From positions 62,001-126,000 of the forward strand of contig JAMOPI010000010.1 of assembly GCA_027064585.1 (NCBI GenBank): 64,000 bases of DNA, given 5' to 3'. The position numbers and the translations under genes were made by a program. Positions 5,392-27,539 of this stretch are shown here, piece after piece (positions within the stretch are counted from its first letter, which is position 1; each line of letters opens with the position of its first letter). The notes below the pieces were generated by a model. That model was not told where the DNA came from, made no database searches, and saw nothing but the letters and a program-made list of their open reading frames with translations. The DNA comes from Candidatus Desulfofervidaceae bacterium. GTDB taxonomy: Bacteria > Desulfobacterota > Desulfofervidia > Desulfofervidales > Desulfofervidaceae.

Positions 5392-6753
5392 CTATTTAGG
5401 CAAGAATATAATAACCTTTGTTCCTTTGCCTTCTTCGCTTTCAATTTTAACCTCTCCGCCGTGATTTTCAATAATATTTTTCACAATAGGCAGCCCTAAG
5501 CCACTGCCCTTTTCTTTGGTTGTAAAGAAGGGTTTAAAGACTTGGTTAAGAGTATCTTCTGGAATGCCTGGGCCATTGTCACTAAAAATAATCGTAACAC
5601 CCCTTTGGGGACGATTTTCGTCAACAGTTACTTTTATTTCACCTCCAGGCGGCAAGGCTTGAATGGCATTAATAACAATATTTAGGAAAGCCCGATAAAG
5701 AAGTTCGGGATCGGCTTCAATGAAAGGAAAGCTACGATAATCTTTTATGACCCCAATGTTTTTATCTTCTAAATTGGGTTTTAAGAAAGTCAATACCTTA
5801 TCAATTACCCCGGCGATGTTGCAAGAAGTAAGTTTGGGAACCCGAGGACGGGCAAATTCTAAGAATTCACTTAGGATTCTATTAAGTCGTCTGACTTCTT
5901 CTACAATAATCTGGGCCATGTGAGCATTGGTAGGATTGCCCTTTTCGCGTTTATACAAAAACTCGGCCGTGCTGCTAATGACGCCTAAAGGATTTCTGAT
6001 TTCGTGCGAGACGGCAGCAATCATTTGGCCTAACGTAGCTAAATGCTCGGCTTGACGAAGACGATTTTCTAACCGTCTTTGTTCCTCGGCGCGGGCAGCA
6101 ATAATCCTTTCGGCCCGTTTAACGATAAGGGTGAGGCCTAAAAATAATAGGCTCATAATCGTAATTGCACTTATCCCTACGGTGAGTTTGAAATGTCTAA
6201 TCGTCTGGTAATCCTTACTTAAATCTTGAGTAATTTCAAAGATTCCTAAGACCAAGTTAGTCGTCTGACCTGGGGACTTTTCGGCCCGAAAGGGAGCATA
6301 GGTTTTAAGCTTAGTTCCCTCTAGACGCGAGGCGATTGTGCCACTCTTAGCCAGTTGAAATTCAGGCGGGACAATAACTTTTTTCCCTACCAACTTAGGG
6401 TTGGTGCTGTAAGCAATGGTGCCCTGGAGGTCATAGATATTGACCTGTTCAATGTTAAAGCCGTGAATAGTATTGCGCACAATTAAGTCCAACCGGTCAA
6501 ATTGGGCCTTTTCCCTTAGGCGGATATGGCCAAATAGGATAACTGTAGGCAGGGTAAATTGCAAAAATACCTGGTGATTGAGATTTTCGGCCACAAGAAA
6601 GGCATACTCCTTGTTCTTCTCCAGAATAAGGGCCTTTGCCCCTTTAGAAACGATGAAGGCAAGGCTGAGAAAGGCAATGGAAAGGAGAAAAAAACTACTA
6701 TAAGAGAAATACTTAACTAGTTTAAAGGGCCTTACGTTTTCCGTTGGTTGCAT
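5392..6753 (-). CDS. Membrane sensor histidine kinase, partner of the NtrC-type regulator
   Basis: Protein of 453 residues with a membrane segment at about 14-35, a periplasmic sensor region (about 36-190), a second membrane segment at about 195-215 (ISAITIMSLLFLGLTLIV) and a cytoplasmic linker. HisKA follows with SHEIRNPLGVISS (His250), then HATPase with NIVINAIQALPPGG, FSDNGPGIPE and GSGLGLPIVKNI. The periplasmic part looks like a single Cache/PAS-like sensor. It is immediately upstream of and co-oriented with the NtrC-family regulator, so the two form a cognate pair sensing an envelope signal. Confidence 0.93.
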   Translation of the reverse strand: MQPTENVRPFKLVKYFSYSSFFLLSIAFLSLAFIVSKGAKALILEKNKEYAFLVAENLNHQVFLQFTLPTVILFGHIRLREKAQFDRLDLIVRNTIHGFNIEQVNIYDLQGTIAYSTNPKLVGKKVIVPPEFQLAKSGTIASRLEGTKLKTYAPFRAEKSPGQTTNLVLGIFEITQDLSKDYQTIRHFKLTVGISAITIMSLLFLGLTLIVKRAERIIAARAEEQRRLENRLRQAEHLATLGQMIAAVSHEIRNPLGVISSTAEFLYKREKGNPTNAHMAQIIVEEVRRLNRILSEFLEFARPRVPKLTSCNIAGVIDKVLTFLKPNLEDKNIGVIKDYRSFPFIEADPELLYRAFLNIVINAIQALPPGGEIKVTVDENRPQRGVTIIFSDNGPGIPEDTLNQVFKPFFTTKEKGSGLGLPIVKNIIENHGGEVKIESEEGKGTKVIIFLPK

Positions 6754-6765
6754 GTTCTGGCTAAC

Positions 6766-7011
6766 TTAAGCGGCGACCTTAAAGCAGCGTCCTAATGGCT
6801 GAAATTCGCTTACTTCTTCCTGTTCTAATTTTTTACGAATTTGCTCAAAATATCTTACTGTTTCAGGGGTATAAAGCCTTTCTCCACACCGCATACAGAC
6901 CTCAGCCTGGACCTTTACCACGGCTGTATGCATGCCACCTCTTAACAACTCTTCTACTTCCTTTTTTACCATTTCTCCACCGCATACAGGACATTTCTTA
7001 AAAGGTATCAT
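6766..7011 (-). CDS. YgiT-type zinc-finger protein, putative antitoxin
   Basis: An 81-residue protein with two CxxC motifs (CPVCGG near the start and CMRCGE near residue 40), the zinc-binding knuckles of YgiT/MqsA N-terminal domains. It lacks the C-terminal helix-turn-helix of full MqsA. The start chosen (MIPFKKCPVCGG) gives an ATGA overlap with the upstream DUF4258 gene and follows a GGAGGG ribosome site; a longer in-frame start would run through the neighbouring gene. YgiT-like zinc fingers downstream of DUF4258 or MqsR-like genes are a recurring toxin-antitoxin arrangement. Function is inferred from family and context. Confidence 0.8.
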   Translation of the reverse strand: MIPFKKCPVCGGEMVKKEVEELLRGGMHTAVVKVQAEVCMRCGERLYTPETVRYFEQIRKKLEQEEVSEFQPLGRCFKVAA

Positions 7012-7322
7012 CTTTCCCTCCTTTTCTTTCCTTCTATCCAGCGTTTGGGGTCCGGACGATAAACAGTTACAAGAACTGCCCATCCGTTTTCTTCATTATA
7101 TGCCCAGACCGTATGTATAGGCTCTCCAACAAAAGACTTTCCACAGATTAAACAACTCGGGAATGGCCTATCTTTTGGATATTCCTCAATAATTTCACCT
7201 TGAAGCACGCTAAAGAAAATTTCGTCAAAGGATAAATTGTCTGCCTTTGCTTCTTTATAGGCATGGGCGGTAATCCTTATCTGATTATGGCGAACGGCGT
7301 TAATAATTTTATCAATATGCAT
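7008..7322 (-). CDS. DUF4258 protein, putative toxin
   Basis: A 104-residue protein with the DUF4258 pattern: an N-terminal helix, ITAHAYKEAKADNLSFDEI, then a beta-rich half with HTVWAYNEENGWAVLVTVYRPD. DUF4258 proteins belong to the RelE/BECR-like RNase fold group and are often encoded next to YgiT-type zinc-finger antitoxins, as here (4-nt overlap). Toxin-first order is typical of the mqsRA-like arrangement. Catalytic activity is not proven. The pair sits between a two-component kinase gene and pgi with short spacers, so it may be cotranscribed with them. Confidence 0.78.
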   Translation of the reverse strand: MHIDKIINAVRHNQIRITAHAYKEAKADNLSFDEIFFSVLQGEIIEEYPKDRPFPSCLICGKSFVGEPIHTVWAYNEENGWAVLVTVYRPDPKRWIEGKKRRER

Positions 7323-7332
7323 GCATTTCTAC

Positions 7333-8682
7333 TCACACTTTTTTACGGGGCCGTTTAAGAAACTGGTCAATTTCTTTTCGCTCTTCCGCAAAACCTTCTC
7401 TGCCCATTAAGGCCTGGGTATAGCGTTTTCCTAGCTCAACTCCAGGCTGGTCAAGGGGGTTGATCTGCATCAGAATACCGCAACAGACTGTAGCCAATTC
7501 CAGGCAGTAAAAGAATTCCCCCATATTGAAGGCATCAACCTTGTCTAGTTCAATCTTGGCATTGGGTCGACCTGCCTTGGTCAAAGCCGCCTCAGTAGCC
7601 ACCTGTTCGGTTTGAATGAGTTCATTAAAAGTATGACCTCCAAGGTAGGCAATGTCTGGATATTCACTAAAGCCTCCAGGGATAGACACGGTATGCTGAT
7701 AACTTTTCACGGTTAAAAAGGTAATGACTTTATCTACAGGACCTTGCATGTAAAGCTGAAGCTGTGAATGTTGATCTGTTACCCCAATAGCCTTTATTGG
7801 TGTAGGCCCCTTACCTTCTTTGCCCAAACTTTCTGCCCAAAGCTGACGCCACCAATCGGCCAAGTCCTTTAAGGCATGAACATAAGGAAAAAGGACATGA
7901 ATGTTTAGCCCTTTATTTAAAAACAGATAGTGGGTAAGCGCATAAAGATAGGCAGGATTATCTAAGGCCTGGCAACGATTGGCCATGGCTTGGGCACCCT
8001 TTAAAAGGGCATCTAGATCAATACCCAAGAGGGCGGCAGGGACAAGCCCAACCGGAGAAAGGACAGAGTACCTACCTCCTACATTAGGAGGGACAGAAAA
8101 TGCTGTAAAGCCTTCTTTTTTTGCTAGTTCCCGTAAGGGTCCCTTTTCAGGATCAGTAATAATAATGATTTGTTCTTTTGGATTTCCCTGTTTTTCTATT
8201 TCCTGGAAAAAAAGGAGGAACTGAGAGAGGGTCTCGGCCGTTTTCCCAGATTTACTAATGACTAGGATAAGGGTTTTTTTGATATCAATAGTGTCTAAAA
8301 CAGCATTAATCAATTCTGGATCTACATTGTCCAGAAAGAAGACCCGGGGCAAATTTTGCCTCTTTTCTTTGGGAAGGAGATTATGAAAGGGATGATTGAT
8401 GGCCCGATGTAAGGCCAATGCTCCCAAACAAGAGCCGCCAATGCCTAAAACGAGTAAATATTCCCACTTGCCTCTTGCCTCAAGGGCTAAGGATTTGATC
8501 TGATTTAATGCCAGGGGAGTAAAGGGTAAGTGCATAAAACCAAAAATGCCTTCCTTGGCCTTTTGCTTAATTTGAAGGTCTGTCTCTTTTAATAATTCTT
8601 TATTTTTCTCCAAAAACGCACCAGGCAGTCCCTTTTCACCAATATTTTCTTCTAAAAGATTAGAAAAATCATAAATAAGCAT
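7333..8682 (-). CDS. pgi: Glucose-6-phosphate isomerase
   Basis: Protein of 449 residues, the length of short bacterial/Bacillus-type phosphoglucose isomerases. Recognisable motifs are GIGGSCLGALALHRA, the phosphate-binding SKSGKTAETLSQF, and GGRYSVLSPVGLVPAALLG. It interconverts glucose-6-phosphate and fructose-6-phosphate in the cytoplasm for gluconeogenesis/glycolysis and precursor supply, including the glucose-6-phosphate needed for myo-inositol phosphate synthesis. It lies 9 bp after the pyruvate-kinase-like gene and likely shares its promoter. Confidence 0.95.
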   Translation of the reverse strand: MLIYDFSNLLEENIGEKGLPGAFLEKNKELLKETDLQIKQKAKEGIFGFMHLPFTPLALNQIKSLALEARGKWEYLLVLGIGGSCLGALALHRAINHPFHNLLPKEKRQNLPRVFFLDNVDPELINAVLDTIDIKKTLILVISKSGKTAETLSQFLLFFQEIEKQGNPKEQIIIITDPEKGPLRELAKKEGFTAFSVPPNVGGRYSVLSPVGLVPAALLGIDLDALLKGAQAMANRCQALDNPAYLYALTHYLFLNKGLNIHVLFPYVHALKDLADWWRQLWAESLGKEGKGPTPIKAIGVTDQHSQLQLYMQGPVDKVITFLTVKSYQHTVSIPGGFSEYPDIAYLGGHTFNELIQTEQVATEAALTKAGRPNAKIELDKVDAFNMGEFFYCLELATVCCGILMQINPLDQPGVELGKRYTQALMGREGFAEERKEIDQFLKRPRKKV

Positions 8683-8691
8683 CTTTTTCCC

Positions 8692-9261
8692 CTATACCCT
8701 CGGTTTGGCCAAAATTTCTAGCACCCTTAAATCCAAAAATCGTTTTGAAGCCGCTGCCTTAAGAATGGCTACCGTATCTGCTCCTTTTACCGTGCCGGCC
8801 ATGGCGACAACTTCATTACCTTCTTTGATTAAACCACCATCACAGGCCTCCATGACAATCTCACAGCAGACCTTAATGCCTTCTCCCAACCGTCGCAGCG
8901 TTTGAGCGATCAAGAGGGTTGGATAAGCGCCTGCAAACTTCTTGGCAAGGGCGGTTTCTAAAGAGTGGGTAAGGATGGTACCTTTATAAATCTTTCCCCC
9001 TGCTTCTATAATAGCCTTATAATTTTCAGCCGAAAACTCATCCTCATTTGGTGTCCTGAAACCAACTGAATGAGCCACGATGACCAAATTGACGTCAAAA
9101 TTTTTTAACTTGTCTGCGGCTAAACGTCCAGTTCGGCCACTAGTAGAAGCAACGACAAAGTCTTTAAAACCTTCTTGAGCTAAGGATACGAGGATATCTA
9201 AACATACTTCCGTATTCTCAGGTCCTGTCTTTTTAAAATAAACGACCTCCTTTTTTTTCAT
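8692..9261 (-). CDS. Stand-alone pyruvate kinase alpha/beta-domain protein
   Basis: A 189-residue protein matching only the C-terminal alpha/beta domain of pyruvate kinase, with the phosphate-loop-like segment VVASTSGRTGRLAADKL and a Rossmann-like end with GTVKGADTVAILKAA. The catalytic TIM barrel is missing, so it cannot be a pyruvate kinase. Such orphan domains are found in archaea and Desulfobacterota and are thought to bind small phosphorylated effectors; the function is unknown. Its place as first gene before pgi suggests a role in central carbon metabolism. A promoter and palindrome precede it. Start ATG follows GGAGGGATAAC. Confidence 0.82.
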   Translation of the reverse strand: MKKKEVVYFKKTGPENTEVCLDILVSLAQEGFKDFVVASTSGRTGRLAADKLKNFDVNLVIVAHSVGFRTPNEDEFSAENYKAIIEAGGKIYKGTILTHSLETALAKKFAGAYPTLLIAQTLRRLGEGIKVCCEIVMEACDGGLIKEGNEVVAMAGTVKGADTVAILKAAASKRFLDLRVLEILAKPRV

Positions 9262-9263
9262 GT

Positions 9264-9312
9264 TATCCCTCCTTTAGGAGGGATAATACTGTGAATATTA
9301 AATTTCTGTCAA
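9264..9312 (-). promoter_or_regulatory. Promoter with overlapping palindrome before the pyruvate-kinase-like gene
   Basis: On the minus strand, TTGACA (9312-9307) and TATTAT (9288-9283) are separated by 18 bp. The imperfectly centred palindrome TATCCCTCC-TTTA-GGAGGGATA (9264-9285) overlaps the -10 box and the expected transcription start, and it also contains the ribosome-binding site GGAGGG. It could be an operator or an RNA hairpin masking the ribosome site; the start point would decide which. Confidence 0.6.
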
Positions 9313-9419
9313 GGGGAACTATTAAATTTGCCTAAAAAATTTTTATATAACAAAAACCCAACAGTTTTTCCTTTCCTTATAGAGAAGGAAAGGCAAGGTA
9401 GGAAAGAAACAAAAGTTAA

Positions 9420-9848
9420 CTAGGCCCTTTTCCGAGTTTTCTTTCCTTCACAAACTGTTTCAGCAATGGCTTCAAGCTGGTTTAAAAAGCTAGCCCGAAT
9501 TTTATTGTTCATAAACCGCAATTTTTTGAGAATGGCAATTTCCTCTTTGCTTAAGGGTAAAATTTCTTTCACTTCTTTTGGAAGAAGTTCGTAAGAGGAC
9601 TCTGCTCCATCAAGGGATGCCTTTTCGTTGAAATCCTTAAAAAAGTAAGAAATGGGGACTTCTAAGGCCTGCGCAATTTGTTGAAGGCGTTCCACAAAGA
9701 TCCTGTCTTTGCCTGTTTCATACTTTTGAATCTGCTGAAAAGACACTCCTACCTTTTCTGCCAGCTGCATCTGGGTTAGACCTTTTTCCTTACGGGCGGC
9801 CCGAATACGCGCCCCAATTTCCTTGTTAGGAACTACTTTTTTCCTCAT
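9420..9848 (-). CDS. XRE-family transcriptional regulator
   Basis: A 142-residue protein with an N-terminal Cro/C1-type helix-turn-helix (about 10-65): IGARIRAARKEKGLTQMQLA, then VGVSFQQIQKYETGK. The C-terminal half is helical and charged with a basic tail (KKTRKRA). Similar small XRE proteins in alphaproteobacteria and Desulfobacterota carry the FQQIQKYETG signature. The target is unknown. It is transcribed divergently from the orphan receiver protein, and the 150 bp between them may hold its operator. Confidence 0.88.
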   Translation of the reverse strand: MRKKVVPNKEIGARIRAARKEKGLTQMQLAEKVGVSFQQIQKYETGKDRIFVERLQQIAQALEVPISYFFKDFNEKASLDGAESSYELLPKEVKEILPLSKEEIAILKKLRFMNNKIRASFLNQLEAIAETVCEGKKTRKRA

Positions 9849-9939
9849 TTTTTTTCTTTTGCCTCCATTCTTTTATTTTTTACGTTTGCAACCAATACCT
9901 CTATCTCCCTAAAATGTCTACAAACTGTCTATAGAAATG

Positions 9940-9968
9940 TTGACAATCGCAATCAATGGTAGTATAAA
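9940..9968 (+). promoter_or_regulatory. Sigma-70-type promoter for the single-domain response regulator
   Basis: TTGACA (9940-9945) and TATAAA (9963-9968) are separated by exactly 17 bp, close to consensus, and lie 33 bp before the ATG at 10002. A ribosome site (AGGAGGT, about 9990) follows. Confidence 0.7.
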
Positions 9969-10001
9969 AGCCCAACGTTGTAAATGTGCAGGAGGTAAAA
10001 A

Positions 10002-10403
10002 ATGAAGGTGCTTGTCGTGGAGGATATACCAAAGGTTGCTGATGTTCTCTCCGAGTTTTTAAAAATCATGGGGTTTTGTCCCCAAACTGCCTTTGATGCC
10101 GAAAGTGCCTTAAAGAAATTACAAAAAAACAAATTTGCCTTTTTGGTCATTGATGGAAATTTACCTGATAAAGATGGCCCTTCGTTAGTTAAAGAAATCA
10201 AGCGAACTTACCTTCATATTCCTATTTTAGGTATAAGTAGCAATTTTTATAGCCAAGCCTTTTTAAAAGCGGGTGCCAATGCATTTTTACTTAAACCCTT
10301 CACCTTTGCTGAATTTAAACAACGCATTGAAAAAATTATTAATTCTCACTACGTGCTTTTCAATAATAAGCTTTTTCCTTTTTCTCCGCAAGTTATAAAA
10401 TAA
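10002..10403 (+). CDS. Single-domain response regulator (receiver only)
   Basis: A 133-residue protein consisting almost wholly of a CheY-like receiver domain: acidic pocket VVEDIPK, phospho-acceptor Asp51 in VIDGNLPDKDG, a Ser at the switch position (GISSN) and the conserved Lys in LLKPFTFAEF. There is no output domain, so it works by protein contact or phosphotransfer. The nearby orphan HDOD-kinase could be a partner, but there is no direct evidence. It is preceded by a near-consensus promoter. Confidence 0.9.
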   Translation: MKVLVVEDIPKVADVLSEFLKIMGFCPQTAFDAESALKKLQKNKFAFLVIDGNLPDKDGPSLVKEIKRTYLHIPILGISSNFYSQAFLKAGANAFLLKPFTFAEFKQRIEKIINSHYVLFNNKLFPFSPQVIK

Positions 10404-10501
10404 AATTATTTTTCTTTTCGCTGACTTGACACAAAAAGAACAAACTTTTACGCTTAAGATGTGCAAAAACCAAAAAGTGGTTCAGTCCTTATGGATGATC
10501 T

Positions 10502-11929
10502 ATGTTCTCAAACATCCCTTACCTAAGCAAACTTCAAGAAGTTGCCCTTAAAGAGGGAATAAAAGAGGTTTACCTCGTTGGTGGTTGTCTGCGGAATCTT
10601 CTTTTACAAAAGCCGGTTCAGGATTGGGACATAGCAGTTAAGGGGAAGGTAAAGGAGATTGCTTCTTTGTTTGCCCAGGTCACCGGCGGACATTTTGTCG
10701 TCCTAGATGAAGAGTGGCAGACCTACCGGGTTGTAAAGTCCCCTACTTATTTTGACTTTACCCCCTTAAGGGGGCAGGACATTTATGCGGATTTGTGGCA
10801 ACGGGACTTTACGATTAATGCCCTTGCTTTAGATATTTTTGCCCAAGATAAACTCATTGATCCCACTGGAGGGCAAGAAGATCTTAAAAAAAGAATCATA
10901 CGGGTCATTGCCCCCAAGGCCTTTTTAGACGATCCCCTTCGGGTTTTACGCGGCTTCCGTTTAGCGGCTGAACTTAATTTTGAGCTTGAACTTAATACAA
11001 AAGAAACAATAAAGCGCTATGCCTACCTTTTAGACCAGGTGGCCGCAGAAAGGATTTATCAGGAATTTAAACGCCTCTTTTTTACCCCTAGAACAAGCCG
11101 CTGGATAAAAGAGATGGGCAGATTAAACGTTTTTAAGGTCCTATTGCCAGAAATAGAGAGCCTTAAAGGAGTAACTCAAGACGGTTTTCATCATTTAGAT
11201 GTCTATGCGCATTCCCTTTTAGCCTTGGAAAAAATAGAGGAAATTATTTATACTCCTAGAGAAGTTTTTCGCCTCCAGGATTTTAAAGAAATCTCTGCCT
11301 ATTTGGCTGAACCTTCACATCGGTTTTGTCTTAAATGGGCTGCCATTTGCCATGATCTAGGTAAACCGGCCTGCCGGGCTGAAGGAGAAAGACGCATCAC
11401 CTTTTATGAACATGATAAAGTTGGGGCACGGTTGTTTAAAAAGATAGCTATGCGTTTACGTTTCCCCGGGAAAGAGGCAGAGCTTATTGCCTTTTTCATA
11501 GAAAAACACATGTGGCCCTTTCACCTGCTGTCCTTATTTTTGAAAAATGAATTGACCTTAAGGGCCATTCGCCGTTTCATCCACAAGACAGAACCCCACA
11601 CGATCGGGCTTCTTCTTCTGGCCATGGCCGATAATCTAGCCGCCCAAGGAGTGGGCAAGCCAGATGGCTATGATAAGGCCTTTTTGAAATTCATGCAGAC
11701 CGTGTTAGAAGAAAGAAGGAGTTATCTGCAACTAAAACAAAGACCCCGCTTGGTCACAGGTCATGATCTTATTTACTGGTTTCAACTGGAGCCAGGTCCT
11801 ATTATCGGTCAGCTCTTAAAAGAGATAGAAGAGGCCCAATTAAATAAAGAGGTTAAGACGAAAGAAGAGGCAAGGAAATGGTTGGAGAAGAGACTGATAA
11901 GAGTTGCCTTGAGCCAAAATGTAGGGTAA
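10502..11929 (+). CDS. CCA-adding tRNA nucleotidyltransferase / poly(A) polymerase family with HD domain
   Basis: Protein of 475 residues of class II nucleotidyltransferase type. The N-terminus has VYLVGGCLRNLLL and the catalytic DWDIAV; then come RDFTINALALDI and LDDPLRVLRGFRLAAEL, the signature of CCA-adding enzymes. The C-terminal half contains an HD metal-dependent phosphohydrolase domain (AAICHDLGKP), as in E. coli-type Cca. It adds or repairs the CCA end of tRNAs in the cytoplasm. Both tRNA-Ser genes here encode CCA, so repair may be its main task. Some lineages split CCA- and A-adding enzymes, which sequence alone does not settle. Confidence 0.9.
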   Translation: MFSNIPYLSKLQEVALKEGIKEVYLVGGCLRNLLLQKPVQDWDIAVKGKVKEIASLFAQVTGGHFVVLDEEWQTYRVVKSPTYFDFTPLRGQDIYADLWQRDFTINALALDIFAQDKLIDPTGGQEDLKKRIIRVIAPKAFLDDPLRVLRGFRLAAELNFELELNTKETIKRYAYLLDQVAAERIYQEFKRLFFTPRTSRWIKEMGRLNVFKVLLPEIESLKGVTQDGFHHLDVYAHSLLALEKIEEIIYTPREVFRLQDFKEISAYLAEPSHRFCLKWAAICHDLGKPACRAEGERRITFYEHDKVGARLFKKIAMRLRFPGKEAELIAFFIEKHMWPFHLLSLFLKNELTLRAIRRFIHKTEPHTIGLLLLAMADNLAAQGVGKPDGYDKAFLKFMQTVLEERRSYLQLKQRPRLVTGHDLIYWFQLEPGPIIGQLLKEIEEAQLNKEVKTKEEARKWLEKRLIRVALSQNVG

Positions 11930-11957
11930 AAAAGACGAAATTTAAAAGGAACTTTTG

Positions 11958-13049
11958 ATGGAGAAAAAGATACCACCTTTACGTTTAGTGGCCTGGGAAT
12001 TGACCAAAAGGTGCAATTTGGCCTGTAAACACTGTCGGGCCAGGGCCATAAACAAACCGATAGAAGGAGAACTCTCTTCAGAAGAGGCCAAGGCAATCCT
12101 AGAGGATATTGCCTCCTTTGCCCAGCCTATAATCATCCTTACGGGTGGTGAACCTTTAATGCGAGAAGATGTTTTGGACTTAGCCGCTTATGGAACCCAA
12201 AAAGGACTGCGGATGGTATTGGCGACCAATGGCACCTTGCTTACGCGGCAATGGGTAGACGAACTCAAGAAGGTAGGGATAAAACGGGTGAGTGTAAGTA
12301 TAGATGGAGCGACGGCCAAGAGCCATGATGACTTTAGGGGTGTGCCGGGGGCCTTTGACAAAACAATGGCTGGCATTGAATGTTTAAGGGCGGGAGGACT
12401 TGATTTTCAAATCAATACCACTGTAACTAAATCAAACTTAAATGAAATTGCGGCCATTGGTGAATTGGCCGTAAGGCTTGGCGCCGTGGCCTATCATATC
12501 TTTTTGCTCGTTCCTATGGGACGGGGCACAGCCTTGCGTGGAGAGGTAATTTCTCCGCAAGAATACGAAGAAGTGCTTACCTGGTTGGTGGAGAAAAGGA
12601 ATAGTTGGCCTATTCAGGTAAAGGCCACCTGTGCCCCTCAATACTACCGCATCTTAAGACAACAGGCAAAGAAAAAAGGGGAAAAGGTAACCTTTGAAAC
12701 CTATGGTCTTGATGCGGTTACACGTGGATGCTTGGCCGGGATGGGCTTTTGTTTTATTTCCAGCACAGGCAGTGTACAGACATGCGGTTATTTAGAAATA
12801 GAATGTGGGTATGTGCGTAAGGAGTCCCTTTCCCATATATGGGTGCATTCAGAGGTTTTCAATAAATTGAGGGATAAAAGGCAATATAAGGGTAAATGTG
12901 GTCAATGCGAATACTGGCAAGTTTGTGGGGGATGTCGGGCCAGGGCCTATGCCTTGACCGGCGATTACCTGGCCGAAGAGCCGATGTGTTTGTATCAACC
13001 CAGGAAAGGAGTGGAGCATGGATGCAATAGACAAAAAGATCATCAATGA
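11958..13049 (+). CDS. ahbD: Heme b synthase, radical SAM decarboxylase AhbD
   Basis: Protein of 363 residues. The radical SAM cluster motif CNLACKHC sits near residue 20, followed by ILTGGEPLMREDVLDLA and SVSIDGATAKSHDDFRGVPG. The C-terminal SPASM-like cysteine cluster (CGQCEYWQVCGGCRARA) binds extra iron-sulfur. The HIFLLVPMGRG segment is typical of AhbD, which oxidatively decarboxylates iron-coproporphyrin III to heme in the siroheme-dependent pathway of sulfate reducers and archaea. ATG at 11958 fits the AAAAGGA ribosome site better than the TTG just before it. It overlaps the next gene by 32 nt. NirJ and AhbC are alternatives, less likely because of the N-terminus. Confidence 0.88.
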   Translation: MEKKIPPLRLVAWELTKRCNLACKHCRARAINKPIEGELSSEEAKAILEDIASFAQPIIILTGGEPLMREDVLDLAAYGTQKGLRMVLATNGTLLTRQWVDELKKVGIKRVSVSIDGATAKSHDDFRGVPGAFDKTMAGIECLRAGGLDFQINTTVTKSNLNEIAAIGELAVRLGAVAYHIFLLVPMGRGTALRGEVISPQEYEEVLTWLVEKRNSWPIQVKATCAPQYYRILRQQAKKKGEKVTFETYGLDAVTRGCLAGMGFCFISSTGSVQTCGYLEIECGYVRKESLSHIWVHSEVFNKLRDKRQYKGKCGQCEYWQVCGGCRARAYALTGDYLAEEPMCLYQPRKGVEHGCNRQKDHQ

Positions 13050-13467
13050 AATTCAGTCCAATTTTCCCATTGTCTCGCGGCCCTATGCCGAGGTGGCAGA
13101 CAGGTTGGGCTTAACAGAAGAGGAAGTTATAGCCAGAGTAAAAAGACTAAAAGAAAAAGGTTATATCCGCCGTATTGGGGCCAACTTTAATTCTGATAAG
13201 CTTGGCTTTGCCAGCACCCTCTGTGGAGCAAGGGTCCCTGAGGAGAAAATTGAGGAGTTTGTTGCGGTAGTTAACCGTTACAAGGGGGTAACCCACAATT
13301 ATCAAAGGCGTGATCCCTTTAATATCTGGTTTACCTTTATTGCCCCTACGATGGAGGACATTGAAACGGCCTTAGAGGAGATAAAACAAAAAACAGGTGT
13401 AAAAGAGATTTATAGCTTGCCGGCAACAAAAACCTATAAAATAAAGGTAAAATTTGAGGTGAAATAA
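13018..13467 (+). CDS. Siroheme decarboxylase subunit (AhbA/AhbB family)
   Basis: A 149-residue Lrp/AsnC-like protein. The N-terminal winged helix has FPIVSRPYAEVADRLGLTEE and VKRLKEKGYIRRIGANFNSD, the hallmark of AhbA/AhbB/NirDLGH; the C-terminal RAM-like half has THNYQRRDPFNIWFTF. AhbA and AhbB together decarboxylate siroheme to 12,18-didecarboxysiroheme, the first step of alternative heme synthesis. Only one paralogue is present here, so the other subunit and AhbC must be elsewhere. The start lies within the end of ahbD, after AGGAAAGGAG, so the two are coupled. Confidence 0.87.
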   Translation: MDAIDKKIINEIQSNFPIVSRPYAEVADRLGLTEEEVIARVKRLKEKGYIRRIGANFNSDKLGFASTLCGARVPEEKIEEFVAVVNRYKGVTHNYQRRDPFNIWFTFIAPTMEDIETALEEIKQKTGVKEIYSLPATKTYKIKVKFEVK

Positions 13468-14282
13468 TGAGAATAAGTGTCCTTATCAACAATTGTGTCC
13501 ATCGGCCAGGCTTAAAGGCCGAACATGGGCTTTCCTTGTGGTTAGAAGAAGGAGGGCGGTATTATTTGTTTGATACCGGAGCTTCAGGGCTGGTGGTGGA
13601 TAATGCTGCTGTGTTGGGTATTTCTCTAGAAAAGGCCGAGGCCATTATTTTAAGCCACGGCCACTATGACCATACGGGCGGTTTGCACAGGGTGTTAGAC
13701 AGAATTAATCGTCCCATTACTGTCTTTGCCCACCCTGGCATTTGGCAAAAGAAGGGATATTTGGGAGAAAAAATAAGGGACATTGGTTTGCCTTTTAAAA
13801 AGGAAGAATTAAACTTGGCTAAATTTGATTATTCTACACAACCTAAACGCATTGCGCCTAATATGTGGCTTACGGGTGAAATCCCGAGAGAAACAGAATT
13901 TGAAGAGGTAGAACCGTCTTTAGTGCAACTGGTAGATGGAAATTGGGTGCCCGATCCCATTTTGGATGATCAGGCCCTAATTATAGATACGGCTCAGGGT
14001 ATTATCGTTATTACTGGTTGTGCGCATAGCGGCATTATTAACACCATCAATTATGCCTTGCACATAGCCAATACCAAGAAGTTATACGCCGTAATTGGTG
14101 GTTTTCATCTATGGCATGCTTCACAGAGGCAGTTAGAGCTTACTATAAGTGCCTTAAAGGAGCTAGATCCAGCCTATATCATCACCGGCCATTGTACAGG
14201 CCTTAATGCCGCCGCGGTTTTAAAGGCAAGCTTTAAAGAAAAATGCATCTTTTTGGATGTAGGGCTTACGCTAAGGCTCTAA
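13467..14282 (+). CDS. Metallo-beta-lactamase-fold hydrolase (MptE/DHP-synthase-like)
   Basis: A 271-residue protein with the metal-binding signature HGHYDHTGG (about residue 67), FDTGASG upstream and further His residues in GCAHSGI and GGFHLWHA. The layout resembles the archaeal 7,8-dihydropterin-6-methyl-4-(beta-D-ribofuranosyl)-aminobenzene-5'-phosphate synthase-like subgroup of the fold. The reaction is unknown. The start overlaps the stop of the siroheme decarboxylase gene (TAATG), so it is in the ahb operon. It may serve tetrapyrrole or cofactor metabolism, by context only. Confidence 0.82.
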   Translation: MRISVLINNCVHRPGLKAEHGLSLWLEEGGRYYLFDTGASGLVVDNAAVLGISLEKAEAIILSHGHYDHTGGLHRVLDRINRPITVFAHPGIWQKKGYLGEKIRDIGLPFKKEELNLAKFDYSTQPKRIAPNMWLTGEIPRETEFEEVEPSLVQLVDGNWVPDPILDDQALIIDTAQGIIVITGCAHSGIINTINYALHIANTKKLYAVIGGFHLWHASQRQLELTISALKELDPAYIITGHCTGLNAAAVLKASFKEKCIFLDVGLTLRL

Positions 14283-14717
14283 TGGAGGCACAACCGTGCA
14301 TAAGTAGGGAGAAAAGGCCGTTATTACCTCTTTAATCAACTGCTCTTTTTGCGGGTGATAAAAAAGGTGACTTTTACACTTACAATCACTAACGCCAAAC
14401 CCCGGTAAATAAGGGAGACGGGATATAAGTCTTTGGGCTACCTGACACTCTATCCGTTCAGCGGTAATGGAAAAGACAACCCTTTTTACATCTGCTTTTT
14501 TGAGAAGATAATCAATGTGCCAATGGATCTTTTTCTCCTTGTTTAGATGACGTTTTATCCGCATATACAAGCCACCTTGGGCTGAGCCGATATAGGCATA
14601 ATAGGCAGGTTTAAATAAAAAACCTCCAAGCTTGCCTATGTGGACAAAACACGACTGCGGAACCTCTACAATCAGGGCATAAATGCCCTTTTGCTTGGGT
14701 ATATGCGCAAGGATCAT
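14271..14717 (-). CDS. DUF123 / GIY-YIG-like nuclease-fold protein
   Basis: A 148-residue protein matching the DUF123 group related to GIY-YIG nucleases: KQKGIYALIVEV (the GIY-like strand), YYAYIGSAQGGLYMRIKRHL, HWHIDYLL and a Cys-rich SDCKCKSHLFY segment. Members are stand-alone or fused to endonuclease III in archaea and thermophiles. A DNA repair or processing role is assumed, not shown. It converges with and overlaps the first metallo-hydrolase by 12 nt and overlaps the second metallo-hydrolase start region by 4 nt. Confidence 0.82.
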   Translation of the reverse strand: MILAHIPKQKGIYALIVEVPQSCFVHIGKLGGFLFKPAYYAYIGSAQGGLYMRIKRHLNKEKKIHWHIDYLLKKADVKRVVFSITAERIECQVAQRLISRLPYLPGFGVSDCKCKSHLFYHPQKEQLIKEVITAFSPYLCTVVPPLEP

Positions 14718-22018: not shown

Positions 22019-22159
22019 TTTCCTATTTCTTTCGGAAGATTGCCTGAACCCTTTACCCACGGTGCAGACTTAAAGGCTAGCTCAAGGCTACCTCAGACAT
22101 GATAGGCTACCACTAAACTAAAATCACTGCCGACAGCTATTAACCAGGTTAAACATTAG

Positions 22160-22200
22160 ACAAAACAAAAACAGCCAGCTAGGAGCTTCTCCTAACTGGC
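22160..22200 (-). terminator. Minus-strand terminator next to the tRNA-Arg fragment
   Basis: On the minus strand a 12-bp stem with one mismatch (GCCAGTTAGGAG / CTCCTAGCTGGC, loop of 3) is followed by TGTTTTTGTTTTG. It lies 19 bp beyond the 3' end of the partial tRNA-Arg copy, so it looks like the original terminator of that tRNA gene. Confidence 0.75.
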
Positions 22201-22218: not shown

Positions 22219-22267
22219 TGGTGCCCCGAGACGATTCGAACGTCCGACCTAGGGATTAGGAATCCCT
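22219..22267 (-). repeat. Partial tRNA-Arg 3' end, putative attachment-site copy
   Basis: Forty-nine bases match the 3' part of the intact tRNA-Arg(CCT) at 24535-24584, from the anticodon stem to CCA, with one missing G in the acceptor region. The sequence upstream of the anticodon stem does not fold as a tRNA. It lies in the opposite orientation to the intact gene, while attachment sites flanking an island are normally direct repeats. Confidence 0.8.
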
Positions 22268-22340
22268 TTCAGGAAGATTTCCTAACCATCCTTGCATCTG
22301 GTGTTTTTAAAATAACTTCCCTATGTTTTGCAATTTTCTT

Positions 22341-22390
22341 TTGGTCTGTTCAGGTCTCTCTTGGTCTATTTTGGGATGGTTTGGGGTGTC
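22341..22390 (+). repeat. Ten-bp phased GGTCT repeats beside the attachment copy
   Basis: Five consecutive 10-bp units: TTGGTCTGTT, CAGGTCTCTC, TTGGTCTATT, TTGGGATGGT, TTGGGGTGTC. The GGTCT/GGGRT cores start at 22343, 22353, 22363, 22373 and 22383. The regular helical phasing and position 75 bp from the attachment copy suggest arm-type sites for a tyrosine integrase. Confidence 0.6.
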
Positions 22391-22523
22391 TGACCTTACA
22401 CTATCCTTACACCAAACATAGCACAATTTTCCTTGACAGATGGGCAAGAAATAAGATTGAATTGTTTTTAATCTTACACTTCATCAGATTTTCCAGAATT
22501 GGAAAAAATGATGGGGGGAGAGC

Positions 22524-23675
22524 ATGCCAATTTACATCCGTTGTCCAAATTGCAAATCAGACCAGAATATAAAAAAACAAACGCTGCAAAAAATGTGGAA
22601 AGCTTTTACCAAAGCAGGGGAAGACTTACAGAGTCAGAGTAGAGCACAACGGCAAAGTTGTAACAAAGACCTGTCCTACCTTAGAGCTAGCCAGGGAAAT
22701 TGAAGTAAAAATAAAGACCGAGCTGATTGAAGGCACTTATTACGACCGTCGCAAGGAAGAAAAGGCCAAAACTCCTTTTGCTGAGTTTTTTGAAAAGAAA
22801 TACTTGCCTGATGCAAGAACTAACAAAAAAGCTGGGAGAGAGAACTGCGGCTCTATCGATATGACATTGCTCCTGTAATAGGGAATAAACCACTTAAAGA
22901 CATTTCGCCTTTTGATCTGGAAAGGATCAAGAAACGAATGAAAGAAGCAGGTAAAGCACCCAGAACCATTGAATATGCCCTTGCTGTCGTGCGGCAAGCC
23001 TTTAACAAGGCCAAAGCCTGGGGTTATTTTGAAGGAGAAAACCCGGTTTCAAAGGTTAAGAAGCCCAGGACAGACAACCGACGGCAGCGCTTCCTAAGCC
23101 CTTCTGAAGCACAGGCCTTGCTTGAGGAGTGCAAAAGAAGAAGCCAGCGACTCTATGAGATATGCCTTTTAGCCCTGCATTGCGGGCTAAGGGCAGGTGA
23201 AATTTTCAATCTCACCTGGGCAGACATAGACCTCAAAAATGATCTAATCCACATCAAGGACCCAAAGAACCGCACTAACCGGGTTGCTTACATGACACCA
23301 GAAGTTAAAGAAATGCTGGAAGCCAAGCCAAAGGGTGAACCCTCGGAGTTGGTATTTAAAGACCGTAAAGGTAACAGGATAAAGGCCATCAGCCGGTCCT
23401 TTAGCCGTGCTGTCAGAGCCCTTGGTTTAAATGACGGCATAACTGGTCCAAGAGACAAGGTTGTCTTTCATACCCTAAGACATACCTTTGCCTCTTGGCT
23501 TGCTATTCAAGGCACGCCCATTTACACCATTAAAGAGCTTATGGGGCATAAGACCCTAGCCATGACCGAAAGGTACAGCCATCTAATTCCGGATGCCAAA
23601 AGGCAGGCAGTTAAGGGATTGACAGAGATGCTTAAAGCAGGAGATAATGTAATAGAGTTTAAAAAGGAGAATTAG
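22524..23675 (+). pseudogene. Tyrosine-recombinase integrase with two compensating frameshifts
   Basis: The start (MPIYIRCPNCKSDQNI) belongs to a zinc-ribbon N-terminus. At an A7 run (22571-22577) the frame shifts by one, continuing as KRCKKCGKLLPKQGKTYRV through the arm-binding region. At an A6 run (about 22825-22830) it shifts back and reads SWERELRLYRYDIAPVIGN into the catalytic domain. That domain (about 23100-23640) has Arg in HCGLRAGEIFNL, HTLRHTFASW, LMGHKTLAMT and the nucleophile Tyr in TERYSHL. From 22938 the reading frame is intact. Restored length would be about 383 residues. It is the likely integrase for the tRNA-Arg site. Confidence 0.85.
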
Positions 23676-23677
23676 TT

Positions 23678-24061
23678 ATGCCTTCTACGGTAAGCACGAT
23701 TAGCCTGGAAAACAAGATTTTTAACGCCCTTGCTAAGGTGATTAAAGACGAAAAAAACGGCTAGGGAAGTTTCAAACACCGTGCTGGAAATAGTGGCCAA
23801 AGGCTTAGAGGAGATAGAAGAAAAGGCCAAAGAGGAAAAGCCGTTGTTAAGGCTGAAGTAAAAGATGAGTTAAGAAAAGAACTGGTTACCAAGGAAGAAT
23901 TTTACGGAGAAATCAAGAGGCTGGAAGAAAAAATAAAAGCCCTTGAAGACAGACTAACTCAAAAGCTAACTACAGGTTTTATTGTTTTGGCCTTTCTTAT
24001 TATCCTGCTTAATCAATCCAGCCTGGAGTTAATTTTAAAACTTCTGGGATTGCTGAAGTAG
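23678..24061 (+). pseudogene. Coiled-coil plus membrane-anchor protein with two frameshifts
   Basis: The gene begins 2 bp after the integrase with MPSTVSTISLENKIFNALAK. A stop follows an A7 run near 23750; one base fewer continues as AREVSNTVLEIVAKGLEEI. A second shift at GGAAAAGCC (about 23840) leads to KDELRKELVTKEEFYGEIKR, a coiled coil, and a C-terminal membrane segment (TTGFIVLAFLIILLNQSS). Such short coiled-coil/TM proteins (DUF1640-like) are often encoded beside toxin modules in thermophiles. Function unknown. Confidence 0.6.
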
Positions 24062-24105
24062 GGAATAGATGAAAATATACCCCTGTCATTTTGCTATGCC
24101 GAGCC

Positions 24106-24424
24106 TTTACAAACAAAGATGGAATCGCAGGGACTCTTTATCTTGTATGCTCTGATACATCACTTTCAAATGATCATATAGCCACAAACTATCAAAAAAA
24201 GATGGAAAGTAGAAGAGTACCACAAATCTCTTAAATCCAACGCTGCATTGGCGAAGTCGCCAACTAAAAGGGTAACAACCCAGATAAGTCATTTAGTTAT
24301 GTCAATGATTGCTGTATTTAAACTTGAATGCCTAAAGATTAAGCATCATTTGAACCATTTTGCACTCAGAGCCAAGGTGTTTATCAAGGCTAATTTTGTT
24401 GCTATGACGGAGTTGGAGAGCTAA
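24106..24424 (+). pseudogene. C-terminal remnant of an IS4/IS701-like transposase
   Basis: About 105 residues of the C-terminus of a DDE transposase survive: GTLYLVCSDTSLSNDHIATN, then RWKVEEYHKSLKSNAALAKS with the catalytic Glu region, and FKLECLKIKHHLNHFALRAK. An A7 run at 24194-24200 causes a +1 shift before RWKVEEYH. The N-terminal two thirds are missing. Eighteen bases after its stop lies a sequence matching the end of the MITE-like elements, so this was probably the parent type of those elements. Confidence 0.7.
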
Positions 24425-24441
24425 CATCAGATCCTTATTCA

Positions 24442-24507: not shown

Positions 24508-24584
24508 GCCCCCGTAGCTCAGGAGGATAGAGCGAGGGATTCCTAATCCCTAGGTCGGACGTTCGAATCGTCTCGGGGGCACCA
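24508..24584 (+). tRNA. tRNA-Arg (anticodon CCT)
   Basis: A full cloverleaf can be folded: acceptor GCCCCCG/CGGGGGC, anticodon loop TTCCTAA giving CCT between AGGGA and TCCCT, T loop GTTCGAATC and an encoded CCA end. It reads AGG codons. tRNA genes of this kind are frequent integration targets; its last 50 bases recur in inverted orientation at 22219-22267. Confidence 0.95.
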
Positions 24585-24620
24585 TCTTTTTTAGAAATAA
24601 TCAGCCTTTTCTCATATTCC

Positions 24621-24675
24621 CTTTCATGGCCTTTCGTGGCATTTGGTGACCAAATTGCCTGCATTTTGCAGGCAA
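24621..24675 (+). repeat. Ten-bp phased repeats and hairpin downstream of tRNA-Arg
   Basis: Three consecutive 10-bp units CTTTCATGGC, CTTTCGTGGC, ATTTGGTGAC (24621-24650) lie 37 bp after the tRNA. They are followed by a hairpin TTGCCTGC-ATTTT-GCAGGCAA (24655-24675) and another GGCAGGCAA. The phasing resembles integrase arm sites on the island side of the tRNA. Confidence 0.5.
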
Positions 24676-24739
24676 TCGGCAGGCAATTTTTAGACAAATT
24701 TTTCTACTTTGCCATTTTGCTTATCAGCTCCACTGGTAG

Positions 24740-24916
24740 GTTAGACAATTGTTAGAAAATTGTTAGAAAAAACTGTTGGATGGCCACCGAATTAAAGCCT
24801 TTTAAATCTGGCAAGATTAAGCTCCAGTTAGATAATTGTTAGAAAACTGTTAGAGAAAAATAGGCTAATAGTTTAGGCAACCGTTAGTTAGATAACCGTT
24901 AGACAAAACTGTTAGA
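24740..24916 (+). repeat. GTTAGA repeat array with 11-bp phasing
   Basis: GTTAGA (one GTTGGA) begins at 24740, 24751, 24762, 24775, then 24827, 24838, 24849, then 24887, 24898, 24911. The three clusters share 11-bp steps, one helical turn, with final steps of 13 bp. Typical unit: GTTAGAAAATT. There is no gene inside. The layout resembles iterons or multiple operators, in the gap between tRNA-Arg and the first minus-strand genes. Confidence 0.75.
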
Positions 24917-24945
24917 TGGTCAGCTAACAAAGGCTAGAAAAATAC

Positions 24946-25104
24946 CTATTTCCTCCCTTTCCATAGCAATACGATAAGAAATAAAAGAGTGAGAAAAACA
25001 ATGACAACACTTATGGCCAGGCTTTTAGGGTCGTTTGAGGGTTTAGCATGGGTTATTGTATAAAGAATATAATTGTAGGGCAGATAAGGAATTAATTTAG
25101 GCAT
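24946..25104 (-). CDS. Small single-pass membrane protein
   Basis: An unannotated 52-residue frame beginning MPKLIPYLPYNYILYTITHA, with one C-terminal membrane segment (LAISVVIVFLTLLFLIVLLW) and a basic KGRK tail. ATG follows AAAGGGATAAAAGTAA. Directly upstream (25126 to about 25240, minus strand) another hydrophobic frame without ATG reads SLVWIIVMVFVILGKLGLF. It could be the membrane-anchored tail of the preceding coiled-coil gene after a frameshift. Function unknown. Confidence 0.45.
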   Translation of the reverse strand: MPKLIPYLPYNYILYTITHAKPSNDPKSLAISVVIVFLTLLFLIVLLWKGRK

Positions 25105-25232
25105 TTACTTTTATCCCTTTCCCTATCAGTGGATCATCACATGGATAAATAATCCCAATTTACCCAATATCACAAAGACCATCACTATGATCCACACAAG
25201 GCTTTCAGGGCGCCAGAAGGGATAAGCATCTT

Positions 25233-25445
25233 TCAGTAGAAATTTAGATTTTTAGAGCTTGAACCTTTTAACTCACTGCCTTCCTGTTTATCATCAAAGG
25301 CATTTAAGTATAAAATAAAAGCATAATTAAACGCATTCCTCATTACCTCTACAATGACTCTTGCCTGTTCTTCAGTAAAGACCTCTTTAAGCTTATCATA
25401 AGCGGCCAGGGTATCAAAAGGAGCAAGCATATCCTCTTTTTTCAT
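25233..25445 (-). CDS. Small helical protein (DUF1640-like), possibly frameshifted
   Basis: A 70-residue protein starting MKKEDMLAPFDTLAAYDKLK, with FTEEQARVIVEVMRNAFNYA, resembling the N-terminal part of DUF1640-like coiled-coil proteins. AAGGAG lies 6 bp before this ATG, so the longer form starting 7 residues earlier is less likely. Family members end in a membrane segment, and one is encoded in another frame just after the stop, so a frameshift near A-run CTAAAAATC is possible. It lies downstream of tumA and may belong to that operon. Confidence 0.5.
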   Translation of the reverse strand: MKKEDMLAPFDTLAAYDKLKEVFTEEQARVIVEVMRNAFNYAFILYLNAFDDKQEGSELKGSSSKNLNFY

Positions 25446-25466: not shown

Positions 25467-25841
25467 TTAAATGCCAATTTCCAGTGTTATCTTGCCATAA
25501 TCCACGGTGGGAACCGTTCTTTTTCTATCGGTTTTTATCTTCTCTAATTTCACAAAACCCAAATCTGCCAGCAGTTTAACATCATCATTGACATTTTTTA
25601 AGTCTCTGCCAAGGATTTTAGCCAATTCATAGATAGAAGCGGGTTTGTGTTTTCTGATAGCCCTTAACACTTCAAGCCTTTTATCAGTCAGCACAGCCCT
25701 CAAAGCATCAATATTTTCAAAATAGACAGCTTCATGTCTTTTAACCCTTTCTCCTTTTTCCAATTTTTTCCAGGTAAGCACAAACTCATTAAGACTATCT
25801 TCCAGAGATTTTATGCCTATTTTAATATTTTTTACTTTCAT
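25467..25841 (-). CDS. tumA: TumA-type antitoxin (HVO_A0114-like winged-helix protein)
   Basis: A 124-residue protein with a MarR-like winged helix: VLTDKRLEVLRAIRKHKPAS, IYELAKILGRDLKNVNDDVK, LLADLGFVKLEK. It matches the HVO_A0114 family that serves as antitoxin and autorepressor for TumE (DUF6516) toxins. The start overlaps the stop of the tumE 3' fragment (ATGA), showing the two were one operon. The antitoxin is intact although the toxin gene is split by an insertion 53 bp upstream. Confidence 0.82.
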   Translation of the reverse strand: MKVKNIKIGIKSLEDSLNEFVLTWKKLEKGERVKRHEAVYFENIDALRAVLTDKRLEVLRAIRKHKPASIYELAKILGRDLKNVNDDVKLLADLGFVKLEKIKTDRKRTVPTVDYGKITLEIGI

Positions 25842-26999: not shown

Positions 27000-27539
27000 A
27001 TGGCAAAAGAGCTGCCCAAATATTTTTCATGGCCGGAGGTCCAGGCCATACTCGGGGCAGCAAAGGTGGATCCCCAAAAACACCTTTTTTTGAACTTCCT
27101 CTGGCAGACCGGCACCCGGGTAAGTGAGGCGATAGCCATAAGACTTAAGAATGTGGACCTATACGGCAGAGCCATAAGGGTGCCAAACCTAAAGCGCAAA
27201 AAAGGCAGCGCAGAGCGCATAATTCCGATAAAAGACAGCCTGGTAGCCGAAATAAGCACCTATGCCCTTCAAAAACGCTTACAGCCAGAGGACAGACTAT
27301 TTAAATTCAGCCGGTTCAGGGCCTACCAGATAGTCAAAGAAGTCTGCCGCAAGGCTGGGATAACTGATGAACGAGCACATCCACACACTTTCAGGCACAG
27401 CTATGCCATAAACCTGCTTTCCCAGGGCGTGCCGATTATCGTGATGCAGAAGCTGCTTGGCCACAGTAACATCAAAAGCACCCTGATTTACTTGCAAATA
27501 GTCCAGAAAGATGCCAGGAAGTTTGCCGCCTGGGGCTGA
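27000..27539 (+). CDS. Short XerC/D-like tyrosine recombinase
   Basis: A 179-residue protein beginning MAKELPKYFSWPEVQAILGA and consisting of the catalytic domain only: Arg in TGTRVSEAIAIRL, HPHTFRHSYAINL, QKLLGHSNIKST and Tyr in LIYLQIV. The N-terminal SAM-like DNA-binding domain is absent, as in archaeal-type XerA and some integron/plasmid-resolution enzymes. A longer upstream start is possible but runs through a hydrophobic, non-conserved stretch. It may resolve dimers or mobilise the region; it is distinct from the integrase at 22524. Confidence 0.85.
   Translation: MAKELPKYFSWPEVQAILGAAKVDPQKHLFLNFLWQTGTRVSEAIAIRLKNVDLYGRAIRVPNLKRKKGSAERIIPIKDSLVAEISTYALQKRLQPEDRLFKFSRFRAYQIVKEVCRKAGITDERAHPHTFRHSYAINLLSQGVPIIVMQKLLGHSNIKSTLIYLQIVQKDARKFAAWG

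Follow-up and report, generated by a model that had tools for sequence, protein, structure and literature searches.

The arm-type sites of tyrosine integrases, both of the lambda type and of phages and islands that integrate at tRNA genes, are short direct repeats beside the core, and the repeated word varies from one integrase to another. For Oenococcus prophages that integrate at tRNA genes, a published study describes four to six such repeats in the arms of attP (PMC8074189). The operators of recombination directionality factors (RDFs) have a related geometry: for the Apl protein of phage 186, 6-bp operators at 10–11 bp are described, three adjacent ones being needed for efficient in vitro binding, and P2 Cox and lambda Xis are cited alongside (PMC7498355). 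Here, we describe an array of ten GTTAGA-type words at 24740–24921 (plus strand) in a 64,000-nucleotide stretch of contig JAMOPI010000010.1 from a Candidatus Desulfofervidaceae bacterium; this whole stretch is called the window below. Like the arm-type sites, the array consists of short direct repeats beside a tRNA core, and it shares 6-bp words, direct orientation, a spacing of about one helical turn (10–11 bp) and runs of at least three adjacent sites with the RDF operators described in PMC7498355. It differs from arm-type sites in that its ten sites form three clusters, all on one side and some 156 bp away from where the tRNA ends, and in that no cognate integrase was found; it differs from RDF operator systems in that no RDF gene was seen among the proteins scanned. 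The array is most likely a known kind of feature and not a new system, and we lean towards the reading that it is a block of protein sites in an attachment arm, a remnant of an integrative element that used tRNA-Arg(CCT), in which the words are integrase arm-type sites.

A preliminary description of the region had listed ten GTTAGA-type words, and all of them were found at the claimed positions on the plus strand, in the clusters 24740/24751/24762/24775, 24827/24838/24849 and 24887/24898/24911. Nine are exact, and the word at 24775 is GTTGGA. The steps are 11, 11 and 13 bp in cluster 1, 11 and 11 bp in cluster 2, and 11 and 13 bp in cluster 3; hence, the claimed internal step of 11 bp holds throughout, while the claimed final step of 13 bp closes clusters 1 and 3 and is missing from cluster 2. 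The location outside genes was also borne out, as no open reading frame (ORF) of at least 80 aa in the window runs over the array. With nine copies, GTTAGA is the commonest 6-mer of any 180-bp stretch, and the window elsewhere peaks at 6. In 60 sequences of 64 kb simulated with an order-3 Markov model, the peak 6-mer count per 180 bp was 3 in one run, 4 in 48 runs and 5 in 11 runs, which shows that the clustering is not what chance would give, a point on which the preliminary description had made its claim depend. The window has two places where a single 6-mer recurs three times at 11-bp steps, both of them within the array, and such triples were absent from 58 of the 60 simulations. The exact pair GTTAGA-N5-GTTAGA was found five times in the whole genome (1,923,821 bases in 38 contigs), always inside the array, and the reversed-word control gave none. 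The array is thus unique of its sort in this 1.92-Mb genome, far beyond chance. The hexamer columns match the consensus at 59 of 60 positions, compared with 28 of 50 for the spacer columns (Fisher p ~2e-8, a value that is optimistic because the hexamer was picked for being conserved). Cluster 3 duplicates part of cluster 1 (48 nt, 77%). No publication on GTTAGA as a repeated binding motif came up in a literature search. Taken as a whole, the array is real and non-random, and it was probably functional at some time.

The preliminary description left unmentioned that a tRNA gene, an inverted tRNA fragment and an integrase gene lie beside the array. The intact tRNA-Arg(CCT) gene (24508–24584, plus strand), the presumed integration target, ends 156 bp before the array start. 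It is followed by three 10-bp-phased repeats, TTTCATGGCC|TTTCGTGGCA|TTTGGTGACC (24622–24651, plus strand), which are possible arm sites and are partly kept in the same-genus genome G002, then by a terminator-like hairpin (24652–24689, plus strand; folding z -4.3), which separates the tRNA from the array, and directly afterwards by the degenerate array-like word TTTAGACAAAT (24689–24699, plus strand), in whose place G002 has TTTAGACAAAAATAGATG. Since the tRNA 3′ flank at 24585–24699 is common to G002, it may be native chromosome; alternatively, its 10-bp repeats could indicate that it is possibly a P′ arm. A 44-bp exact copy of the 3′ half of tRNA-Arg, from the anticodon loop to the 3′ end, lies at 22224–22267 on the minus strand as an attachment-site remnant. 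Hence, both an integration target and a core duplication are present beside the array, but the tRNA 3′ copy is inverted, which could have resulted from inversion by att recombination or by insertion sequence recombination. The segments 22224–22267 and 24535–24578 form an exact 44-bp inverted repeat, which flanks a broken integrase gene and a transposase-like remnant (24060–24425, plus strand; judged by eye), the latter located between the integrase and the tRNA. This tyrosine integrase, int1 (22525–23675, plus strand), has an intact catalytic domain (PF00589) and an N-terminal part broken by frame changes. Between the tRNA fragment and int1 there are P-arm-like, GGTCT-type 10-bp-phased repeats (22340–22388, plus strand), followed by a pair of CCTTACAC 11 bp apart (22394–22412, plus strand), which is int1's own 11-bp word. 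In the 3′ flank of the tRNA fragment, a single ATTAGACAAAAC stands by a hairpin (22155–22166, plus strand), and 22150–22166 matches 24893–24909 at 88%. The array region is plastic.

The spacing of the array recurs upstream of integrase genes. Among 77 regions upstream of tyrosine-integrase ORFs, from this phylum and beyond, 7-mer pairs at exactly 11 bp, with words not chosen beforehand, were found in 23, although these matches are not all independent because some loci are close relatives. Other periods from 8 to 20 gave 0–6 of 77, and the control stretches gave 9 of 221. Fourteen of the 26 int1-related loci (L077–L090) allow a comparison with the window: a tRNA 3′-half fragment lies just upstream of the gene in 13 of 14 (by eye), and an 11-bp pair of words, chosen by eye, precedes the gene in 13 of 14 as well as in the window. 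In L080 the 11-bp pair is on the opposite side of the core. The surroundings of the array (tRNA, tRNA 3′ fragment and tyrosine integrase) together with the 11-bp integrase signature point to site-specific recombination. The data suggest that arrays of helically phased words next to tRNAs may be recognized as footprints of attachment arms. With the sharp 11-bp peak upstream of integrases, there is a simple way to look for these sites and to match an arm to its integrase, even where the latter is gone. Outside mobile elements the significance is modest.

Two other elements can be compared with the array. The first, in the same genome as the array, is an integrative element of 8 kb at tRNA-Leu(TAA) that appears intact (L237; G000 C3:1-20000, ~6179–14400). 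The order on one of its arms is tRNA-Leu, hairpin and AGTGGCCAAATAGTGGCCAA, and the same 11-bp pair is located upstream of the integrase on the other arm. The likeness to the array lies in the order of tRNA, hairpin and 11-bp word pair, with the word recurring at the integrase end; the difference is that this element has two sites per arm and a different word (TTGGCCAC). In G003 contig C93, an integrase 3′ end is followed by two copies of TATTAGACAAAAG at 13 bp, a hairpin and tRNA-Thr (by eye). Its TTAGACAAAA word is repeated between the hairpin and the integrase end at a 13-bp step, as in the array, which has GTTAGACAAAACT-GTTAGA; unlike the array, C93 has two such sites, and its integrase belongs to another group. 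A search of the window's genome with this integrase gave nothing at E <= 1e-20, and no relatives of it were found in IMG/VR. In two G002 elements, L416 and L417, a check for both-arm words gave integrase-side pairs only. A scan for TTTCTAACNNNTTTCTAAC gave 112 stretches. An intact close paralogue of int1 was also observed in the window's genome in L234 (G000 C37, ~69.5–71.3 kb), where it adjoins a tRNA fragment; the contig stops there, before the other end of the L234 element.

The family sample comprised five genomes, including the window's own. A search for GTTAGA at 11 bp in other genomes, which the preliminary description had proposed, succeeded in one of them, G003, whose contig C92 (L007) carries one cluster of three words at 11 bp and a degenerate fourth, followed by the region of a 52-aa ORF, a helix-turn-helix (HTH) gene and a TumE gene at 91–98% identity; of the 395 genomes of the phylum covered by the search, the remaining 393 had no exact triple. 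The repetition of part of cluster 1 in cluster 3 and the single cluster in L007 indicate that the copy number changes. Two alignments speak for an attachment arm. In the first, a sequence 52 bp from the L007 array resembles the P arm that belongs to L234, the intact integrase (score 38, 0 of 200 shuffles as good). The second concerns G002, which has kept tRNA-Arg and ~90 bp of its 3′ flank at 85% and has no array. The flank continues as TTTAGACAAAAATAGATGTATTT, and this sequence can be aligned to the last part of the L007 array (score 30, 0 of 200 shuffles as good). G002 also has two copies of GTTAGA in L117, between genes named by eye as glyS and ruvB; this pair is probably due to chance, because the ruvB stop lies inside the pair and the ruvB end is the same as in relatives. 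To the left of the L007 array, two attC-like sequences (132–192 and 500–572) with a small ORF between them may mark the end of an integron cassette array. This interpretation was set aside as doubtful in view of their weak folding (z -1.8 and -0.5), and no integron integrase scored above the cut-off among the seven window proteins tested.

If the array is a block of attachment-arm sites, it would sit in the distal arm, presumably P′, with GTTAGA as the recognition word. With copies one helical turn (11 bp) apart, neighbouring protomers would be loaded next to each other on the same face of the DNA, and the bent nucleoprotein complex thus formed would carry the arm to the tRNA core, where strands are exchanged. 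The likeliest binder would be the tyrosine integrase of the element, through its N-terminal arm-binding domain, with an Xis-type RDF as the close alternative, and the cognate integrase would have been lost or left behind. The broken int1, located 2 kb away and accompanied by another word, is probably not the cognate enzyme.

Several observations weigh against the array being an attachment arm. No cognate integrase was found in the window's genome, int1 has a word different from GTTAGA, and ten sites are many for arm-type sites. The genome has seven PF00589 matches, of which only two, both on this contig, lie within a few kb of the array, and an exact GTTAGA pair adjoins none of the seven genes. 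The GTTAGA array was also found in 0 of 26 int1-related loci; together with the different word, this led us to reject the array as attL of int1. The peak at 11 bp is missing from the regions downstream of integrase genes (6 of 76, compared with 9 for 12 bp and 8 for 20 bp), and the signature is therefore one-sided in the integrase count. The L007 array has no adjoining tRNA, and the alignment of the G002 flank with the window's own array was not significant (8 of 200 shuffles as good). In IMG/VR, the exact GTTAGA triples at 11 bp (65) were close to the controls at 10 bp (56), and the reversed word gave 27. A tyrosine integrase within 1.5 kb accompanied 5 of 65 arrays at 11 bp, 1 of 27 reversed and 0 of 55 at 10 bp, which are small counts. 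Because the word was not found in an arm near a cognate integrase gene in this genome of 38 contigs, the array can be said to work like an array of arm-type sites, but not to be a proven member of that class.

As the 11-bp and 10-bp counts in IMG/VR hardly differ, most such arrays elsewhere have other causes, and the controls do not support the idea that 11-bp spacing of GTTAGA is a signal widespread among viruses. Many of the matches are plain 11-mer tandem duplications (by eye). Some viral arrays near integrases count in favour of the attachment-arm reading. Three are located at the very end of the integrase gene (L017, 34 bp; L021, 23 bp; L065, overlapping), and two are farther away (L019, 281 bp; L039, 562 bp). 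In L038 the order, judged by eye, is tRNA 3′ end, array and integrase-like ORF, the Pfam score of the latter being below the cut-off. In L012 and in L050/L055/L070, the 11-bp arrays lie a few hundred bases upstream of small-terminase-like ORFs (by eye); these arrays are possibly packaging sites, with weak or no Pfam support for the terminases.

The attachment site could be interpreted correctly and yet the words could be operators of an RDF of the Xis/Apl/Cox type, which agrees with their length, spacing, orientation and clusters of three. We consider this the main rival, possible but unlikely. No Xis/AlpA-type gene was recognized nearby, where the family scan covered the larger ORFs and two small ones and the other small ORFs were listed. 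We take the same word on both arms to be more typical of integrase arm sites, and integrase arm sites were favoured over RDF operators because the intact element of C3 carries its 11-bp pair on both arms. A more speculative proposal, which we regard as rather improbable, is that filaments of a directionality factor, or of integrases from a group, not yet described in this lineage would nucleate on the array. Duplication would then tune the number of copies, from a remnant in G002 and one cluster in G003 to the three clusters of the window, and so set the efficiency of excision. Slightly less credit still is given to the neutral expansion of a functionless 11-bp unit. The partial duplication of cluster 1, the single cluster in L007 and the many tandem 11-mers in IMG/VR would all fit such an expansion, but the hexamer is conserved far beyond the spacer and is kept in L007, and the decay of a neutral 11-mer would look different.

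Clustered, phased direct repeats are also the general form of iterons and of partition centromeres, and in the viral stretch L011 the array directly precedes an ORF that looks DnaB-like by eye. The preliminary description had named cooperative DNA-binding proteins or replication initiators as users of such phasing, while recognizing no Rep gene nearby. The first part is consistent with the conserved hexamer, the helical phasing and the one-cluster homolog in L007, but initiators find no support, as no rep, par or tub gene was recognized in 24.9–32.3 kb among the proteins scanned and the ORFs listed, and 24690–25260 gave no match in plasmid or phage collections by distant blastn. Thus, iterons or a ParR/TubR-like centromere of a mobile replicon appear quite improbable. 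Least probable is an operator array for a transcription regulator such as the HTH protein encoded at 25467–25841. The array and the HTH/TumE genes stay linked in L007, but the array is not in their promoter, because these genes are on the minus strand and it lies beyond their 3′ ends, ~0.55 kb past the HTH stop.

To the right of the attachment-arm candidate, the array is adjoined by a 52-aa ORF with a hydrophobic stretch judged by eye (24946–25104, minus strand), which resembles a small membrane protein and whose region is 91% identical in L007. A second small ORF (70 aa) is located at 25233–25445 on the minus strand. Further to the right follow the HTH protein (PF25212; 25467–25841, minus strand), which appears antitoxin-like, and a TumE-type toxin (PF20126; 26564–26956, minus strand), as well as a transposase remnant, the short tyrosine recombinase int2 (27000–27539, plus strand; 179 aa, catalytic domain only) and more toxin-antitoxin genes. 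The region is framed by dsr-like genes (16–22 kb) and a helicase-like gene (32.3 kb), all judged by eye, and in the same-genus G002 the matches to the dsr-like genes, the helicase-like gene and the tRNA are on three separate contigs.
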